Of a stretch of 64,000 nt of DNA, positions 6,844 through 27,754 are shown in pieces. This DNA is from Anderseniella sp. Lineage in GTDB: Bacteria > Pseudomonadota > Alphaproteobacteria > Rhizobiales > Aestuariivirgaceae. Within the stretch, counting starts at the first letter, position 1. Every line of letters begins with the position of its first letter. A program made the position numbers and the translations under genes. The stretch lies in NCBI GenBank assembly GCA_030626025.1, contig DAOUPT010000008.1, positions 1 to 64,000 on the forward strand. The letters are read 5' to 3'. A model generated the notes under the pieces. The model ran no database searches and was not told the DNA's origin. It saw only the letters and a list, made by a program, of their open reading frames with translations.

Positions 6844-7317
6844 TTAGCTTGCTGCTTCTTCAGTCGCAGCTTCTTCAGCAGGGGCCTCTTCGGCCGGAGC
6901 CTCTTCAGCAGGTGCATTGGCAGCTTCTTCGGCAGCAGCTTTTGCAGCTTCTGCTTCGGCAGCGGCTGCTTCTTCCGCTGCAGCTTTGGCATCAGCCGCC
7001 GCAGCTTCACGATCCAGACGTTTCTGGCCAGGCTTGCCCTTGTTGGGGTTATTGCGAGCTTCGCGCTTCATCAGGCCTGCAGCATCAAGAAAACGTGCAA
7101 CCCGGTCGGTTGGCAACGCACCAACGCTGAGCCAATGCTTGACACGGTCTTCGATCAAACGCACCCGGTTTTCATCATCTTTGTTGAGCATCGGATTGTA
7201 AGTACCGACTTTTTCCACATAACGACCATCGCGTGGTGAAGTCACATCAGCCACAACAATGCGATAATAAGGACGTTTTTTAGAGCCGCCACGGGCCAGT
7301 CTGATTTTAAGTGCCAT
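6844..7317 (-). CDS. rpsP: 30S ribosomal protein S16 with Ala/Glu-rich C-terminal tail
   Basis: Residues 1-100 are ordinary S16 ([47 protein letters not shown]), a protein needed early in 30S assembly. Residues 102-157 form a low-complexity Ala/Glu tail with PAEEA repeats, which makes the protein 157 aa rather than about 80-90. Alphaproteobacterial S16 often has an acidic Ala-rich tail, so this is an extended family form and not a fusion. GGAGA lies ten bases before the ATG. The tail is repetitive in DNA too and gives long false open frames on the other strand. Confidence 0.96.
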
Positions 7318-7357
7318 TTTATTTAGTTCTCCAATTAAATTTAGTAGTGTTCAGATC

Positions 7358-7867
7358 TCAGATTTCAGCAGGATTTGGGTGCCGGTAAACACCAGCCTCC
7401 TCACCCCACAAAATTATGTTTCGTTCGTGTGTCGCACCCAGTCGTTCCGCAACTTTTTTGGATGCAAAATTCTTTTTAGAAATCAGGCTGATCGCTGTGT
7501 CCCAACCCAAATCCTCATAAGCATGCTTGCGAACCCGCAAAGCAGCTTCAGTTACAAACCCTTTACCAGTCGCAGCGGGTAAAAGCGTCCAACCAATTTC
7601 GCGTTCAGGCCAACCTTCGGGAAACCATAAACCTGTCCAGCCAACAAAACCGCCAGTTGCTTTTTCTTCCACTGCAAAAAAGCCATAGCCACGCAAGAAC
7701 CAATGACCTGCCAGCGCCGCAAACCGCCGCCATGCAGTATCACGATCACAGGTCCCGCCAATAAAACGCATGTGCTCTTCATCGCACATCATTTCAGCCA
7801 GCGGCTCAAAATCTTCGTTGCGAAATTGACGAAGCTTCAAACGATCTGTTTCAAGTTCGGTAATCAT
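7358..7867 (-). CDS. GNAT-family N-acetyltransferase (RimJ/RimL-like)
   Basis: A 169 aa acetyltransferase of the GNAT fold: LETDRLKLRQF at the N-terminus, GFVGWTGL, EREIGWTLLPAATGKGFVTEAA (the acetyl-CoA pyrophosphate loop is near GKGFVTEA) and NFASKKVAERLGA near the end. The pattern is that of the RimJ/RimL group, which acetylates protein N-termini or small molecules. Its ATG overlaps the ffh stop by 4 bases and it precedes rpsP by 40 bases, so it is inside the SRP/ribosomal operon. A ribosomal or SRP substrate is possible but unproven. Confidence 0.88.
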   Translation of the reverse strand: MITELETDRLKLRQFRNEDFEPLAEMMCDEEHMRFIGGTCDRDTAWRRFAALAGHWFLRGYGFFAVEEKATGGFVGWTGLWFPEGWPEREIGWTLLPAATGKGFVTEAALRVRKHAYEDLGWDTAISLISKKNFASKKVAERLGATHERNIILWGEEAGVYRHPNPAEI

Positions 7868-9447
7868 CGCTTCTTTTTGCCTCCCCCAGAACCACCAAGG
7901 CCGGGAAGACCTTTAGGCAAACCACCGCCAAGACCGGGCAGTCCACCCAATCCGGGCAAACTTCCACCACCAAGCCCCGGCAACCCTTTGGGTGCAGAAA
8001 CCCCTTTAGCCATATCTTGTAATTCCGGCGGTAAACTGGCCGGATCCATGCCGCCAAGTTCAGCCTGCATTTTTTCAAGTTCAGCCGGACTGGGCATACC
8101 GCCGCCACCAAGACCAAGGCCGCCCATCATACGAGACATCATGCCTTTGCTGTTGCCCATCTTTTTCATCATTACAGACATTTGCTTGTGCATTTTAACC
8201 AGCTGGTTGATTTCCTGCACCTTGGTACCAGAACCCGCAGCAATACGCTTTTTGCGCGATGCATTGAGCATTTTAGGAAATTGGCGTTCTTTGGCTGTCA
8301 TCGATGATATAATCGCCAATTGATGAACCAGAATGGAATCATCCAGATTGGCACCATCCATCTGCTTTTTGATTTTGCCCATGCCCGGCAACATGCCCAT
8401 GACGCCTGACATGCCGCCAAGTTTTTGCATTTGCTTGAGCTGTTCGGCCAGATCTTCAAGGCCGAACGTGCCCTTCTTCATCCGGGCAGCAATTTTGTTG
8501 GCTTTATCAACATCAATGGTCTGGGCTGCTTTTTCAACCAGCGAAACCACATCGCCCATGCCTAAAATACGATTGGCAATCCGTTCCGGGTGAAAGTCTT
8601 CAAGCCCTTCAAGCTTTTCACCGGTGCCCATCAACTTGATCGGCTTACCGGTTACCGCCCGCATGGAAAGCGCCGCACCACCGCGACCATCACCATCAAT
8701 CCGGGTCAGCACAATACCGCTGACACCCACTTGCTCGTTAAAGCTCTTGGCCAGATTAACTGCATCCTGTCCAGTCAGAGCATCAGCCACCAGCAGGGTT
8801 TCATGGGGCTTGGCAACTTCACGGATCGCCTCAACCTCGGCCATCAATTCTTCATCAATATGAAGACGGCCAGCGGTGTCGAGAATGATCACATCATAGC
8901 CACCAGTCCGGGCTTCTTTCATCGCCCTGACGGTAATTTCTACCGGTTTTTGACCGGCAACAATCGCAACCGTGTCAACGCCGATTTGCTCACCCAAAAT
9001 CGCCAATTGTTCCTGCGCGGCAGGCCGATAGACGTCAAGCGACACCATCAAAACTTTTTTGTTGTCACGCTCTTTCAAGCGTTTGGCGATTTTGGCAGAG
9101 GTGGTTGTCTTGCCTGAACCCTGCAAACCAACCATCAAAATCGGCACCGGCGGCTCGGCATTCAGGCTCAGCGGTTCAGCGTCACCACCAAGCACCTCGA
9201 CCATCACATCATTGACAATTTTAACAACCATCTGGCCCGGGGTGACAGATTTCACCACATTGCGACCAATCGCTTCTGCTTTTACCCTCTCAACAAAGCC
9301 GCGCACCACTTCAAGGGCCACATCGGCCTCAATCAGCGCCCGTCGCACCTCACGCATGGCCGCATCAACATCACTTTCACTAAGCGCACCACGCCCGGTA
9401 AGTGAGTCAAATATGCCAGAGAGGCGGTCTTGTAAGGTTTCAAACAT
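7864..9447 (-). CDS. ffh: Signal recognition particle protein Ffh
   Basis: Ffh is the GTPase subunit of the signal recognition particle and delivers ribosomes making membrane proteins to FtsY. The 527 aa protein has the N domain (residues 1-90), the G domain with GLQGSGKTT near 107, DTAGRLHIDEE near 190 and TRIDGDGRGGAAL near 248, and a Met-rich M domain from about 330. The C-terminus (about 480-527) is a Gly/Leu/Pro tail with repeated GLPGLGG and a GGGKKKR end, common in alphaproteobacterial Ffh. FtsY is in the same window at 13.1 kb. It is the first gene of the operon running to rplS. Confidence 0.97.
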   Translation of the reverse strand: MFETLQDRLSGIFDSLTGRGALSESDVDAAMREVRRALIEADVALEVVRGFVERVKAEAIGRNVVKSVTPGQMVVKIVNDVMVEVLGGDAEPLSLNAEPPVPILMVGLQGSGKTTTSAKIAKRLKERDNKKVLMVSLDVYRPAAQEQLAILGEQIGVDTVAIVAGQKPVEITVRAMKEARTGGYDVIILDTAGRLHIDEELMAEVEAIREVAKPHETLLVADALTGQDAVNLAKSFNEQVGVSGIVLTRIDGDGRGGAALSMRAVTGKPIKLMGTGEKLEGLEDFHPERIANRILGMGDVVSLVEKAAQTIDVDKANKIAARMKKGTFGLEDLAEQLKQMQKLGGMSGVMGMLPGMGKIKKQMDGANLDDSILVHQLAIISSMTAKERQFPKMLNASRKKRIAAGSGTKVQEINQLVKMHKQMSVMMKKMGNSKGMMSRMMGGLGLGGGGMPSPAELEKMQAELGGMDPASLPPELQDMAKGVSAPKGLPGLGGGSLPGLGGLPGLGGGLPKGLPGLGGSGGGKKKR

Positions 9448-11796: not shown

Positions 11797-13071
11797 ATGG
11801 CCGGCTCGCAAGTCATAACCTTTGGTTGCCGTCTCAATTCATTTGAATCAGAGATCATGCAAAACCATGCCCAAAATTCTGACATGGATAACACCATCAT
11901 TTTCAACACCTGCGCTGTAACCGCTGAGGCCCAGCGGCAGGCCCGGCAGGCCATTCGCCGGGCAAAACGTGAAAACCCTGACGCCAATATCATCGTCACC
12001 GGCTGCGCTGCACAAATTGATGCCACAAGCTTTGCTGAAATGACCGAGGTCAATCTGGTTCTCGGCAATGAAGAAAAACTGCAAGCCCAAAGCTATAGCC
12101 AAATCGATTTCGGTCTCGACAATGAGGAAAAAATTCAGGTCAACGACATTATGTCAGTTACCGAAACCGCGCCGCAACTGATTGACGGTTTTGGCGAACG
12201 CTCCCGGGCTTTCGTCCAAATTCAAAACGGCTGCGATCACCGCTGCACCTTTTGCATCATACCGTTCGGTCGCGGTAATTCGCGTTCGGTGCCATCGGGT
12301 GAAATTATCGCCCAGATCAATCGTCTGGTCGACAACGGCTATAAAGAAGTCGTGCTGACCGGTGTCGACATAACCGCTTACGGGTCCGACCTTCCCGGTA
12401 ATCTGACATTGGGCAAGCTGGTGCAAAAACTGCTCAAAGCGGTTCCCGACCTTGCCCGCCTGCGCCTGTCCTCAATCGATTCTGTAGAGATTGATGATGC
12501 CCTGATCGATGCCATCAGTAATGAACAACGGCTGATGCCCCATATTCATTTGTCATTGCAAGCCGGTGACAACATGATCCTCAAACGGATGAAGCGCCGC
12601 CATTCCCGCGAGCATTCACTGGAATTCTGCCAGCAATTGAAAAAGGCCCGCAAAGACATCGTTTTTGGTGCCGATCTGATTGCCGGTTTCCCGACCGAAA
12701 CCGATGAGATGTTTGAAAACACCCTGGCACTTGTCGATCAATGTGACCTGACCTATTTGCACGTCTTTCCCTATTCGCCACGCCCGAACACCCCGGCAGC
12801 CCGTATGCCACAAGTCAACGGACGCATCATTCGCGACCGCGCCGCCCGCCTTCGTGCTGCCGGTGCGCTACGGCTGGAGCGATTTCTTGAACGCCAGACC
12901 GGCACCATTTGCTCGGCCCTGATTGAAACAGAAACGACCGCCCGCAGCGAACATTTCGCCCCAATCAAACTACAAGATGAAAACCTTCCCTCTAGCGCGG
13001 TTGGCGCTATTTTAAATGTCAAAATCACCGGCACGGCAAACGGCAAATTACAAGGTCATGCGGCACCATGA
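11797..13071 (+). CDS. mtaB: tRNA t6A37 methylthiotransferase MtaB
   Basis: A radical-SAM enzyme that adds a methylthio group to t6A37 of ANN-reading tRNAs, giving ms2t6A. In 424 aa it shows the UPF0004 N-terminal domain with three cluster-binding cysteines (Cys11 in FGCRLNS, Cys39 in FNTCA, Cys70 in VTGCAAQ) and the radical-SAM CxxxCxxC at 146-153 (CDHRCTFC), followed by a C-terminal TRAM-like region. GCRLNS is typical of MtaB rather than MiaB. It overlaps the ftsY start by 4 bases. Confidence 0.94.
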
Positions 13072-14378
13072 GTGAAAAGAAAAAAGGCGGCTTTTTCAAA
13101 CGCCTGTTCAACCGGATAAAAGGCAAACCGGCACAAGAAGAAACAGATGAGACAATTCCTGAGGACCAGGCAGCACTGGAAGCACCACAGGAACAAGACA
13201 CATCGCTGACTACTGAACAATTGCCGGAACCCGAAGTTCAGCCCGAACCAGAGCCGGAACCCGAGGTTCAACCCGAGCCAGAGCCGGAACCCGAGGTTCA
13301 ACCCGAGCCAGAACCGGAACCTGAGGTTCAACCCGAACCAGAGCCGGAACTTGAGGTTCAACCCGAACCAGAGCCGGAACCCGAGGTTCAACCCGAGCCA
13401 GAACCAGAGCCGGAACCTGAGGTTCAGCCAGAACCGGAACCTGCCGCATCAAGCAAAAAAGGTTGGTTTGGCCGCCTTCGCTCCGGCCTTGCCAAATCCT
13501 CAAATGCCCTAACCAGCGGCATTACCAGTGTTTTCACCAAGCGCAAGCTTGATGCCGATACCATTCAGGATTTTGAGGACATTCTCATTCAGGCCGATCT
13601 TGGCATTGATATGGCCACGCGGATTACTGAAAAAGTTTCCAAGGGACGTTTTGACAAGGAAATCGACCCACAGGAAATCAAACAGATTCTGGCCGATGAA
13701 ATCACCGCTGTGCTTAAACCGGTTGAAATTCCCTTCACCTTTGATGAAAGCCAAAAACCCTTCGTCATTCTGGTGGTTGGCGTTAACGGGGCTGGCAAAA
13801 CCACAACCATCGGCAAGTTGGGTGCCATTGCAACCAATGAGGGTTTTTCCGTTACCGTGGCCGCTTGCGACACCTTCCGGGCCGCCGCCGTTGAGCAACT
13901 CAAAGTCTGGGGTCAGCGTATCGGTGCTGACGTTGTATCAGCGCCAACCGGAGCCGATGCTGCCGGTCTTGCCTTTGATGCCCAGAAACAGGCTACACAA
14001 TCGGGCAGTGACATTTTGATCATTGATACCGCCGGTCGCCTGCAAAATAAAGCCGACCTGATGGCCGAACTGGAAAAAATCGTCCGGGTTCTAAAAAAAC
14101 AGGATGATGGCGCTCCCCATGCGGTGCTTTTGGTACTCGATGCCACAACCGGTCAGAATGCAGTGACCCAGACCGAAATATTTGCTAAAATCGCCGGGGT
14201 GACCGGCATCATCATGACCAAGCTTGATGGCACTGCTCGCGGTGGTATTCTGGTTGCCATTGCCGAGAAATTCAAACTGCCCATCCATGCCATTGGCGTT
14301 GGTGAACAAATTGACGATTTTCAACCCTTTGACGCGGACGCCTTTGCCCGCGCAATCGCAGGACTCGATGACGAATGA
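13068..14378 (+). CDS. ftsY: Signal recognition particle receptor FtsY
   Basis: FtsY is the SRP receptor GTPase at the inner membrane. The 436 aa protein has a basic start ([17 protein letters not shown], a possible lipid-binding helix), an acidic linker (about 28-126) made largely of [10 protein letters not shown] decapeptides, and the NG domain from about 131 with the P-loop [10 protein letters not shown] near 240, [26 protein letters not shown] and [13 protein letters not shown]. An acidic N-terminal A domain is normal for proteobacterial FtsY; the regular repeat is the oddity. It overlaps mtaB by 4 bases upstream and yciB by 4 bases downstream. Confidence 0.97.
13224..13445 (+). repeat. 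30-bp tandem repeats coding for [10 protein letters not shown] in ftsY
   Basis: About seven imperfect 30-bp units code for decapeptides of Pro-Glu dipeptides broken by a Val-Gln step (residues 53-126 of FtsY). The units differ by synonymous changes and one Pro-to-Leu change, and the last unit has an additional PE. Such a tract is prone to slippage in multiples of 30 bp, which would keep the frame. Confidence 0.9.
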
Positions 14379-24112: not shown

Positions 24113-25162
24113 TCATTCTGCTGATTTAGGGGGAGCGACATTTTCAGCTTTAAAGCAGGCATAATAAGCCGTCTTGTCTTTATCTGCCTTTTCAGCGCAT
24201 TCGCTGAACACAACCAATTCACTCTCATGGGAAAAATACAAATACGGTGCCACAAGAACCCTGCTCTTGCCAGCATCTGTATTACCAAACCGGTCAATCT
24301 GACCGGCAAGCTCAGGGCTTTCATCAATCAGCGCCTTTTGCAATTGGTCACCTTTGAGAAAATTGTCCGGCAACTGGTCAAACGGCCCGTCAAAATAATT
24401 ATTGACCATAGAATTACCATCATAAACTCCGATCAGGATCAGCCGGTCAAGAAACTTGTCTTTGTAAAAAGCAAAGCCCGTGCGCCCGCCAATCTGAACG
24501 CTTTGCGCAGAACGCCCGGCTGAAAACTGGTCAGGCACAGAACTTGTCTGGTTCAAAATATAATGGAACAGCTTGGAGTTCTTGTTGTAGGTGAGGAAAA
24601 ATTGAAGACCGGACTCATCATAAACCGGCCCGATATACTCTTCCCAATCATTGATCAAACCCTTGGACGGTTGCACATCAGAAAGGTCATTGAGATGAAA
24701 AACAACCGATTTATCCTTGACCGTAACCCGATAGCGCAATTTGCCAAGTTGCTTGATTTTAACACCATCTGCCACAGTAAGCTGTCTGTATTCGCTGGTT
24801 GTTTCTTCATTCCAGCGGGTAAATGCATTGAAATAGGCAAAGTGTAAAACGCCCTTGTCCCGGTCAAATGCATCAAGTCTCATATTACCGGCAAATTTTA
24901 TGCCTTCGTGATAAAAACTGAAATAGTAGTAGTTTTCAGTCGGATAGACCCGCACATCCGGCGAAAGAGCATTAAACGCGAACGAAAAGACCGCCTTGAC
25001 ATCTTTTATATCCAGGCCACCTGCCCGATTGAGTTCCTCAAGCTGTTTTTGATTGGTTTCAAACTTCGGCAACCCGGCAGCATGTCCCTGCGTTGCAGGC
25101 AGCACCATCATCCATACAACGAAAACCCGCGCTACCGCGCGAAATGTCACCAGCAAATTCAT
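24113..25162 (-). CDS. Secreted protein of unknown function, partner of the Ser-His repeat protein
   Basis: A 349 aa protein with a signal peptide (MNLLVTFRAVARVFVVWMMVL ending near GHAAG, residue 29). The mature part has no motif I can name. It is rich in aromatic residues (ENYYYFSFYHEG, HFAYFNAFTRWNEE) and ends with two cysteines in SECAEKADKDKTAYYACF, which probably pair. It begins 42 bases after the stop of the Ser-His repeat gene on the same strand, so both are likely made from one transcript and act outside the cytoplasm. A plain ATG start directly precedes the signal peptide. Confidence 0.7.
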   Translation of the reverse strand: MNLLVTFRAVARVFVVWMMVLPATQGHAAGLPKFETNQKQLEELNRAGGLDIKDVKAVFSFAFNALSPDVRVYPTENYYYFSFYHEGIKFAGNMRLDAFDRDKGVLHFAYFNAFTRWNEETTSEYRQLTVADGVKIKQLGKLRYRVTVKDKSVVFHLNDLSDVQPSKGLINDWEEYIGPVYDESGLQFFLTYNKNSKLFHYILNQTSSVPDQFSAGRSAQSVQIGGRTGFAFYKDKFLDRLILIGVYDGNSMVNNYFDGPFDQLPDNFLKGDQLQKALIDESPELAGQIDRFGNTDAGKSRVLVAPYLYFSHESELVVFSECAEKADKDKTAYYACFKAENVAPPKSAE

Positions 25163-25204: not shown

Positions 25205-27754
25205 TCAGCCACCCCTTTCTACATTAGGGTCTGGCACAGAATGCCTCACCCTTGATATGGCTCTATTGTGAGACCTTGTGCGTGCATGCGAGCGTTTCTT
25301 GTTATGGGAACCCTTCCGCAAGTGCGAGCGCTTCTTATTATGGGAACCAATCCGCAAGTGCGAGCGCTTCTTGTTATGTGAGCCGGTCCGCAGATGCGAG
25401 CGCTTTTTATTATGGGAACCAAGCCGCTGATGCGAAATCCGCTTGTTATGTGAGCCGGTCCGCAAATGCGAGCGCTTCTTGTTATGTGAGCCGGTCCGCA
25501 GATGCGAGCGCTTCTTGTTATGGGAACCAATCCGCTGATGCGAAATCCGCTTGTTATGTGAGCCGGTCCGCAAGTGCGAGCGCTTCTTGTTATGCGAGCC
25601 AGTCCGCAGATGCGAGCGCTTCTTATTATGGGAACCAATCCGCTGATGCGAAATCCGCTTGTTATGCGAGCCAGTCCGCAAATGCGAGCGTTTCTTGTTA
25701 TGCGAGCCAGTCCGCAGATGCGAGCGCTTCTTATTATGGGAACCAATCCGGCGGTGCGACTTCAACTTGTTATGCGAGCCATACTTCAGATGCGACTTGC
25801 GCCTGTCGTGAGAAGAGTAGCGCGAATGTGATTTTCTACGTTGATGCGACCACAAACGATAATGGGATTTTTTCCCATTGTGCGAACCATACCGCAAATG
25901 CGATTTGGAGCGGTTGTGTGAAGCATAGCGTCCATGCGACTGCCTGCGCTGATGCGACCACAGACGGTAATGGGACTCAAGCCTGGCATGAGAACCATAT
26001 CTCAAATGAGATTTATTAAGGTTGTGAGATGCCCTGCGGTAATGGGACCGCGACCTTGCATGAGAACCGTATTTATTATGGGACCGCCTGGTTGAGTGCT
26101 TAAAAACCGGTGGTGGTAATACAATCCCGTATCCACCTTCTGGGCTTCCGGCCCGACGAATTTCGATATCACCAACTTTGCTGTCATCATTTTTCGTTGC
26201 CTGAAAGCGATCAATCTGCCCGAATTGATTGACATTCAAATCTGTATCAATCTTGTAGCTATTGGCAAGATTACCTTCCAGCAGATCAGCCGGGCGACCT
26301 TCAGCACCAGTGACATGATCGCGATCTGTCACCGCATTGGTTTGGGGGTCATAACAGGCGCCAAGCTGCGAGCAAAGGCTATCACCAGTGACCCATACAA
26401 ACTCATCAACTTTGGCCAAGTCAATATTTCCGGTACTGTCATAACCATAACCCCAGGCAACACCACCGGCAGCGTTATTATAACTGTCACGCTGGTTTTC
26501 GTTGGCACCGTTTAAATTGCCCACACCATAAGGGCCTTCCAGCAACCAGTTTCCCTGGTCGTCTTGTCTAAATTTTAAAACCCGTGAAATTGCCGGTTGG
26601 GTAAACGGACTTTCCGGATCACCTTTCAGGTTCCGCATTCCGCCGCGTTCAGCCACCAGCATGACGCCTTCAACAGAAAAAGCAATATCACTTGGTGCAG
26701 ACAAAATCTTGCCATAAGCGTTCTCTAACGCCGGTAATGCCACTTCGCGGCGCACATCATTAACATCAAAGCCACCATCGGCTCTAATACCAACCGACCA
26801 AATCCAATTGGCTTGATCGTCTGTTTCACCCGTAAGCGAACCCCAGCTTGCATAAAACAACCGGGTGGCACCATCTGTTCCCGTGCGCACACCAAGTCCC
26901 CATACCCGACGCTTGTGAGGCGATATATTCCAGCACGAAGGTGTCCCTTCAAAGTCGGTTTCACAGCTATCAACACGCGCCCGGCTCGATGCTGAAAACG
27001 GTTCGCGTGACAACGACAATGTTTCGCCGGTTGCAACGTCAACAAAATTACCGCGACCATCTACACCATGATTAAAAACCCCTGTTTCACGGCCGGTCTC
27101 GATATCCAGCCGGTGGATCATACCAGTTTCCATATCAGAAACAAAAAGCTGCCTGTGTGCCTTATCGTAGGCGACATTACCCAAAGCAGCGCCGGTATTC
27201 TCACGACCATTCAATGTTATATCAGCAAATATTTCCGGTTGATAATTATTACGTGCATTGAGTTTGTAGATCGTACCGGGACCACCACCAGCACCCCACA
27301 TACCATTGGCCCAGTCACTGTTATCGCCACTTCGGTGCAATCCAAATGCCGCCGTTGCAGATACATAAATGTTGGCAGGTTCAGCATCATCAATCGCAAT
27401 ACCAAAAATCTGTCCGGTATCACGGGCAAAAACCGGGTATTTTTGCGGTTCATTTCTCCAGTGCTGGCCGACGGCTCTTTGACCGGGATTACGAACATCA
27501 ATGACACTGCCTGTTACACCATCCTCATCAATAACCTCGACTTCTTCACCGTTTTGCCCCGCCTCAACTTTTGTCCCTGAAAATCTGGTAACATAGGCTT
27601 CACCGGGTGCTATGCCTGCTTCCTGAGCAACAACGTGAACACCTCCAGCAAATAAAAATGCACAAACAAACAAAACCAACCCCAAAAAAGAAGGCGCATG
27701 ACGTTTTGCTGTACAAGATGAACCGGGGTATAATGGAAAAGCGGGGGTTTTCAT
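25205..27754 (-). CDS. Large secreted propeller-like protein with 46 Ser-His hexapeptide repeats
   Basis: An 849 aa exported protein. Signal peptide about 1-43 (SFLGLVLFVCAFLFAGGVHVVA). Residues about 60-530 look like a beta-propeller of the NHL/TolB kind: repeated strands such as IFGIAIDD-IYVSATA, LFVSDMETGMIHRLDI, RRVWGLGVRTG, LFYASWG, PSDIAFSVEGVMLVAERGG. Two cysteine pairs (SCETDFEGTPSC, LCSQLGAC) may be disulphides. A PPP linker (near 550) leads to residues 558-833: 46 units of SHxxxx without a break, very rich in Lys/Arg, then a 16-residue acidic-ended tail. The repeat could bind metals through His, or polyanions through its charge; neither is known. The start has AAAAGG eight bases upstream. 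It leads a two-gene operon and is divergent from the lactate dehydrogenase-like gene. Confidence 0.85.
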   Translation of the reverse strand: MKTPAFPLYPGSSCTAKRHAPSFLGLVLFVCAFLFAGGVHVVAQEAGIAPGEAYVTRFSGTKVEAGQNGEEVEVIDEDGVTGSVIDVRNPGQRAVGQHWRNEPQKYPVFARDTGQIFGIAIDDAEPANIYVSATAAFGLHRSGDNSDWANGMWGAGGGPGTIYKLNARNNYQPEIFADITLNGRENTGAALGNVAYDKAHRQLFVSDMETGMIHRLDIETGRETGVFNHGVDGRGNFVDVATGETLSLSREPFSASSRARVDSCETDFEGTPSCWNISPHKRRVWGLGVRTGTDGATRLFYASWGSLTGETDDQANWIWSVGIRADGGFDVNDVRREVALPALENAYGKILSAPSDIAFSVEGVMLVAERGGMRNLKGDPESPFTQPAISRVLKFRQDDQGNWLLEGPYGVGNLNGANENQRDSYNNAAGGVAWGYGYDSTGNIDLAKVDEFVWVTGDSLCSQLGACYDPQTNAVTDRDHVTGAEGRPADLLEGNLANSYKIDTDLNVNQFGQIDRFQATKNDDSKVGDIEIRRAGSPEGGYGIVLPPPVFKHSTRRSHNKYGSHARSRSHYRRASHNLNKSHLRYGSHARLESHYRLWSHQRRQSHGRYASHNRSKSHLRYGSHNGKKSHYRLWSHQRRKSHSRYSSHDRRKSHLKYGSHNKLKSHRRIGSHNKKRSHLRTGSHNKKRSHLRTGSHNKRISHQRIGSHNKKRSHLRTGSHNKKRSHLRTGSHNKRISHQRIGSHNKKRSHLRTGSHNKKRSHLRTGSHNKRISHQRLGSHNKKRSHLRTGSHNKKRSHLRIGSHNKKRSHLRKGSHNKKRSHARTRSHNRAISRVRHSVPDPNVERGG
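25256..26083 (-). repeat. 18-bp coding repeats (46 units), with 108-bp higher-order copies
   Basis: Read on the minus strand, 828 bases code for 46 consecutive SHxxxx units. Units 20-37 (25418-25741) form three copies of a 108-bp block coding for SHNKKR SHLRTG (twice) then SHNKRI SHQRIG; the third ends QRLG. Units 38-44 keep the alternation of SHNKKR with SHLRxG. The N-terminal 18 units are far more varied (YRLW, GRYA, NRSK). This points to an old array extended at its 3' end by recent tandem duplication. Confidence 0.95.

Follow-up and report, generated by a model that had tools for sequence, protein, structure and literature searches.

A candidate two-part exported system pairing arrays of the H-x4-S motif with a conserved neighbouring protein

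The window, by which is meant the whole stretch of 64,000 nucleotides of Anderseniella sp. DNA that was analysed, contains an ORF with an ATG start whose product carries a long and regular His/Ser array, and is named here the carrier. The next gene, 42 bp downstream of the carrier ORF, encodes a second protein that was named the partner. The features of both genes are as follows.

25205..27754, minus strand: whole carrier ORF, 849 amino acids plus stop, comprising signal peptide, propeller, PPP linker and Hx4S array
27626..27754, minus strand: putative signal-peptide-like N-terminus, residues 1–43, read by eye
26120..27625, minus strand: predicted six-bladed beta-propeller, residues 44–545 as modelled (AlphaFold2, Foldseek, VIA-align)
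25256..26083, minus strand: 46 SHxxxx units, residues 558–833, every His with Ser at +5 (Hx4S)
24113..25162, minus strand: partner, a 349-amino-acid protein with a putative signal peptide (by eye), conserved beside Hx4S carriers

An earlier note on this DNA had described the carrier as a secreted, propeller-like protein that runs through a PPP linker into 46 unbroken Ser-His hexapeptides, and the present analysis agreed with it on each of these points. The start of the protein looks like a signal peptide by eye, the PPP linker lies between the propeller and the array, and SH was found at residues 558, 564 and so on up to 828 with a constant step of 6 and no slip. One extra Hx4S at H553 brings the number to 47 pairs in residues 546–849; across 20,000 residue shuffles of the same region the mean was 8.2 and the highest count 19. 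A 108-bp tandem unit (4.6 copies, 90% matches, 25286–25781) makes up the C-terminal part of the array, and some of the array's regularity is a result of tandem duplication. The first 18 units have diverged, and in these the S and H are invariant, the third codon bases vary (Ser codons TCG 7, TCT 5, TCC 4 and TCA 2; His codons CAT 14 and CAC 4) and the number of different residues at the four inner positions is 8, 4, 6 and 8. Because S and H are fixed despite silent codon change, the simplest account would be that selection acts at the protein level in this reading frame. That these units change their Ser and His codons only silently also ruled out the array as a frame artefact. The array has a pI of about 12 and a charge of about +83, and the charge of residues 1–545 is about -25. 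A promoter and terminator scan found sites no more frequently than in shuffles. A different kind of tandem repeat, the acidic EPEPEVQP, occurs at 13223–13441 of the window within an ORF at 13068–14378 on the plus strand, which presumably resembles FtsY.

The structure prediction and Pfam search that had been suggested for the propeller part gave a predicted fold and no Pfam family. The AlphaFold2 model of residues 44–545 reached a pLDDT of 87.1 and had 571 Foldseek matches with E ≤ 0.001. The VIA-align Z was 8 or more for 957 of the 976 compared chains, and the best match was nidogen (1npe_A; Z 25.0, rmsd 2.6, 261 residues aligned). The region is predicted from this model to be a six-bladed beta-propeller, and in its predicted fold it is similar to the YWTD/LRP, NHL and DFPase/SGL propellers (Z 22.1 for DFPase). 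It differs from them in having about 9–16% identity in the rows listed and in matching none of the Pfam families, including the YWTD, NHL and SGL sequence families, and a function is not implied by the fold. Among the propeller relatives, Reg_prop was matched in 2 of 31, with a best E of 0.052.

The alignment of 56 partner sequences contains 32 invariant columns, many of them polar (including E76, N93, R95, D182, S184, R227, R240, N254, D258, D262, Q263, N267, D290 and R301), as well as a Cys pair common to members. The rows of the sets A3 (56 rows) and A4 (31 rows) were selected by choice. When the 56 members were searched against Pfam and NCBIfam, nothing better than E 0.03 was obtained, each match being in one member, and no relative was found in the PDB by sequence. 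The partner model had a pLDDT of 87.5, and Foldseek gave a best E of 0.011 in the PDB and no match at or below 0.001 either there or in the viral structure library. The best VIA-align Z was 4.3, with an rmsd of 3.8 over 65 residues, in a comparison that covered mostly residues 52–158; a new fold is not claimed, as the C-terminal half was barely compared. The partner is taken as a conserved, putatively secreted protein without a recognised fold, nothing convincing having been seen in the PDB and viral structure libraries. No match to the partner was found on plasmids.

The partner was found in 5 of the 69 genomes of the GTDB family to which the window belongs, and in all five it adjoins a propeller protein with a His/Ser array. 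These arrays are SHxxxx in the window, mainly SWH heptads in G037, G040 and G059, and VHRPRGS in G039. A second copy of the partner in the genome of the window adjoins a 142-amino-acid HYYRRS-type protein with 8 Hx4S. Among 385 genomes drawn over the class, the partner was present only in the window's own genome and in G306. Scanning a species-genome collection by the partner alone confirmed 122 relatives, and the loci of 80 of these (L055–L134) were analysed; they are mostly labelled Hyphomicrobiales or other Alphaproteobacteria, plus one Legionella. The sets overlap, since L062, L076, L095 and L117 are apparently the same contigs as G059, G037, G040 and G039, respectively, and some of the 80 loci seem to share one genome (L087/L105, L111/L113 and L114/L116).

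An ORF passed the strict array test if it had at least 5 Hx4S, over three times the expectation, with spacing 4 the best of spacings 0–9. Such an Hx4S-rich ORF was present at 42 of the 80 partner loci. When spacings 0–9 were compared in 4395 ORFs, such a peak fell at spacing 4 in 47 and at another spacing in 6; a few of the 47 read one array a second time, on the other strand or in another frame, and some loci hold two. A looser test on the remaining 38 loci added 7, giving 49 of 80. This locus test is the main evidence for the genomic coupling between the partner and Hx4S, which is well supported. At 31 of the 80 loci, no Hx4S-rich ORF was detected by the strict or the looser test. When 17 of these 31 were inspected, a small secreted-looking neighbour with two Hx4S was noticed at L105, L107, L113, L114 and L123, a signal that is only suggestive because two Hx4S also occur in unrelated ORFs of those loci. 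The array-less partner copies of L067, L068, L071 and L116 lie beside other gene types, which we take to be patatin-like, macro-domain-like or XdhC-like, and they are perhaps a partner branch with another role.

The spacing of His and Ser was measured in propeller tails beside partners, which were chosen by propeller similarity alone. Thirty-three loci had a propeller match and 32 were scored, the L130 tail (5 amino acids) being too short. Ser stood at +5 from 1025 of the 1171 His in these tails, 7.9 times the expectation, and spacings 1, 2, 3 and 5 were depleted (ratios 0.24–0.32). H-x4-S was the commonest spacing in 31 of the 32 tails; the exception was L060, where a separate 217-amino-acid Hx4S gene lies 64 bp before the partner. 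In the control, which consisted of 21 propeller tails away from partners, Ser stood at +5 from 5 of 68 His. The control loci were L002 and L008–L031 minus L027, which is beside a partner (L003 and L004 lie outside the set); they yielded 25 proteins, of which 21 had tails of at least 60 amino acids and were kept, some of the tails being cut because the loci are short. A wider set of 43 arrays was formed by leaving out the L060 propeller tail and adding 10 non-propeller carriers, the L130 fragment and the window. Here Ser was at +5 from 1185 of 1335 His, but this set was partly picked for richness, so the bias is smaller in the 1025 of 1171 of the propeller tails. Of the 150 His in the wider set that lack Ser at +5, Thr takes that place for 33 and His for another 33, which is only suggestive of a hydroxyl, and not Ser alone, being needed there.

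The residues between His and Ser range from Lys/Arg to fillers such as HLPIGS, HNPALS, HWRWGS and HDKDES. In the 43 arrays, about 77% of the units have R, P or K at position +2 (Lys or Arg in roughly half), and roughly half have G or R at +4. The pitch of the units was 6, 7, 8, 9 and 10 in 327, 199, 283, 84 and 73 cases, respectively, often mixed within one protein, which points to a short motif rather than a regular solenoid. The number of Hx4S per carrier in this set varies from 5 to 72. Since the spacing is kept across unrelated fillers and variable pitch, Hx4S behaves as a short linear motif, and the strict hexad and the charge of the window array are a lineage style. The basic backbone emphasised in the earlier note holds for the window but fails as a general account, because in 42 related arrays the net charge per residue lies between -0.08 and 0.22, and the array of the window, at 0.28, is the extreme. 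Likewise, the SHxxxx hexapeptide stands for the window, but among relatives the unit is H-x4-S at a pitch of 6–10. Basic charge and strict hexad were both ruled out as conserved properties on these grounds. The neighbour of the remote G306 partner (L136, 6385–7299, plus strand) has a Mucin2_WxxW domain, one Hx4S and, by eye, mainly H-x3-S; the spacing may have shifted in this protein.

The motif is carried by proteins of several types. Besides the propeller tails, these include a propeller with DUF11 and peptidoglycan-binding domains (L103), small secreted-looking carriers of the HWRWGS type (L075, L081, L088, L092, L093, L096, L102, L106, L112 and L127) and, in Legionella gresilensis, a 216-amino-acid SHxxxx protein directly after the partner. 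The three carrier labels require 6 changes on a tree built from 84 partners; 33 rows of this tree have no label, and G306 and the second copy of the window's genome form long branches. The nearest row to the window partner is the Legionella partner, with 58% identity. The carrier type changes, then, while Hx4S stays. The remote partner of L136 is lipoprotein-like by eye. A paralogous propeller in the window's genome (L002/L039, 8172–11003, minus strand) has a Cys/Trp-rich repeat tail and no partner adjoining it. Legionellaceae genome G628 (L189, 3648–10287, minus strand) has the partner and then a propeller gene interrupted by an ORF at 6880–8136, presumably transposase-like; its C-terminal propeller piece contains 48 Hx4S, and a further ORF has 13.

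Co-occurrence was also followed across whole genomes. The family of G464 has the partner in 29 of 119 genomes, and a profile (A5) built from ten small proteins that neighbour partners matched 34 of the 119, 10 strongly and 24 more weakly. The line for strong matches (E ≤ 1e-12) was drawn after viewing the list, at the gap between 1.4e-20 and 3.9e-12. All ten strong genomes were partner-positive (Fisher 1.9e-7; as the genomes are related, this and the p values below are rough and overstate independence), with match and partner no more than 3 kb apart on one contig in eight of them, and because the profile came from partner neighbours, five of the ten were included by construction. These donors of profile rows were G464, G481 and G499 by handle and G492 and G523 by sequence identical to L102 and L081. 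The strong genomes other than donors were partner-positive in 5 of 5 cases (p 2.9e-4), and G470, G471 and G475 among them had themselves first been reached through the partner scan. The small proteins of these five contain 5 Hx4S in G545, G471 and G475, 3 in G525 and 1, among six His, in G470. The weaker matches were not enriched, with the partner in 7 of 24 genomes (p 0.12). Of 30 partner genomes that were searched with A5, 26 had no array beside the partner; a match at E ≤ 0.01 was obtained in 16 of these, many of the matches being weak, and a plausible small protein with at least 3 Hx4S was seen only in L139, L140 and L151.

Among 102 Legionellaceae genomes, two have a full partner and the same two have Hx4S arrays (1 of 1 without the seed genome G480, p 0.01). 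A third, G649, has an 87-amino-acid ORF matching a piece of the partner (L191, 6114–6377, plus strand), which is likely a partner remnant. G672 matched the Legionella array in the search, but no array was present in the ORFs kept there. The congeners G050 and G051 have the same propeller gene beside the same oxidase gene, with no array in the visible tail and 0 and 2 Hx4S in the whole visible propeller proteins, and the partner was not found in either genome. A joint loss of array and partner is only suggestive here, since both contigs end inside the propeller ORF. The repeat alone matched 8 of the 385 genomes of the class, the window's own at E 3.4e-179 and the others at 1.9e-6 or weaker. No convincing Hx4S protein was seen at these other loci (L169–L179); L170/L177 has a frame rich in Thr, Ser and His with 18 Hx4S; this frame runs opposite a second long one, and its own count of H-x8-S is higher still (24).

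These results together would be best explained by a two-part exported system of which the window is one instance, and we give this explanation as a whole a probability of about 0.6. The first part would be a carrier on which H-x4-S (loosely H-x-[R/K/P]-x-[G/R]-S) is presented in repeated copies; in the window this would be the predicted six-bladed propeller with its tail of 46 units. The second would be the neighbouring 349-amino-acid, putatively secreted partner, for which H-x4-S would serve as a short linear recognition motif and which would perhaps modify or cross-link the His or Ser for surface or matrix assembly. It is very probable, from the gene neighbourhoods, that the partner and the Hx4S carriers work together, and the partner itself probably recognises the motif. 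That it changes the motif covalently is put forward tentatively. We infer that the system is located beyond the inner membrane; export, the propellers and the peptidoglycan-binding domain of L103 prompt the guess that it helps to assemble surface or matrix. Counted against the two-part explanation are the array-less partner loci, the non-enriched weak A5 matches, the exceptions of G470 and G306 and the lack of likeness of the partner to any known enzyme. As the earlier note had held, no described system was found to account for the locus: the literature covered, which excludes bioRxiv preprints and many subscription-journal papers, showed no description of Hx4S with this partner.

Hxs (His-Xaa-Ser repeat) radical-SAM modification systems have proteins with regularly placed His and Ser that are paired with dedicated genes, and the window resembles them in the regular His/Ser of its array and its dedicated gene. 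The spacing in the window is H-x4-S and not H-x-S, the Hxs spacing being taken from the family name, and H-x1-S was depleted in the 32 tails (36 observed against 129 expected, with 1025 H-x4-S). The NCBIfam models HxsA (TIGR03979), HxsA3 (NF038309), HxsA4 (NF038313) and HxsB (TIGR03978) were used for comparison. The carrier had a weak HxsA4 match (E 0.037; 14.9 bits, cut-off 55), and no HxsA-type model scored above its cut-off. Among ten relatives, the Legionella array (L055) matched HxsA4 at E 1.4e-6 with 29.0 bits against 55, L129 matched HxsA3 with 12.9 against 65, and L103 matched HxsA with 34.9 against 121.65, in its peptidoglycan-binding part. Of the 24 partner genomes in which HxsB was looked for, one scored above the cut-off (G510, locus L063; 593.6 bits), with HxsB on contig C29 and the partner on C1, and none was above it in the window's own genome. 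The sub-cut-off scores, the spacing and this absence ruled out Hxs membership, and a relationship to Hxs is very improbable. Equally improbable is that the array is a functionless low-complexity tail that drifts and is kept by duplication. The 108-bp repeat would fit such drift, as would the array-less tail of the contig-end propeller ORF in the two congeners, but the S and H of the diverged units show silent and no replacement changes, and the same spacing recurs in unrelated carriers.

The earlier note had not linked the partner and had proposed that the many imidazoles of the array capture metal, bind an anionic polymer or mineral, or give a pH-switched adhesion; on this reading the array would work alone and the partner would only share the operon. 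The high His content, the very basic array of the window and the frequency of Lys or Arg at +2 are consistent with this, and histidine-rich metal-binding proteins likewise have a high His density on an exported chain. Binding of metal or charge has no obvious need for the Ser at +5 that is kept in the propeller tails, however, and charge is not conserved among related arrays. The link to the partner persists through a change of carrier. The kept Ser and the dedicated partner gene, by which the locus differs from those proteins, are left unexplained, and we consider an array acting alone unlikely. A more serious alternative, although still doubtful, is a docking scaffold in which a partner binds each Hx4S without changing it and the array sets the number of partners on a carrier. 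Cohesin-dockerin and other motif-array scaffolds combine an exported chain that bears many small recognition units with a second, dedicated protein, and by inference the present genes share the multi-copy small unit and the dedicated protein; they differ in the six-residue motif and in a partner without a recognised fold. The wide range of motif number in carriers, the invariant columns of the partner and the lipoprotein-like remote partner would fit docking. Some small neighbours have only two or three Hx4S, however, and the many polar residues among the invariant positions would suit an active site too.

Within the two-part explanation, we lean first towards a modifying or cross-linking enzyme, with non-covalent docking close behind. 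As a possibility that we hold only tentatively, the partner may represent a new class of secreted enzymes whose recognition sequence is H-x4-S and which install a novel modification or cross-link on exported carriers, with the arrays as serial substrates and lineages swapping the carriers. Many genomes that bear the label Hyphomicrobiales have the pair, as do the two Legionellaceae genomes. That a His and a Ser stay five residues apart in dozens of arrays whose filler is unrelated, and that they go together with one conserved secreted protein, would be a rare signal of an exported recognition or modification system, and one that is directly testable. What appeared as a curious repeat becomes a question about two components.
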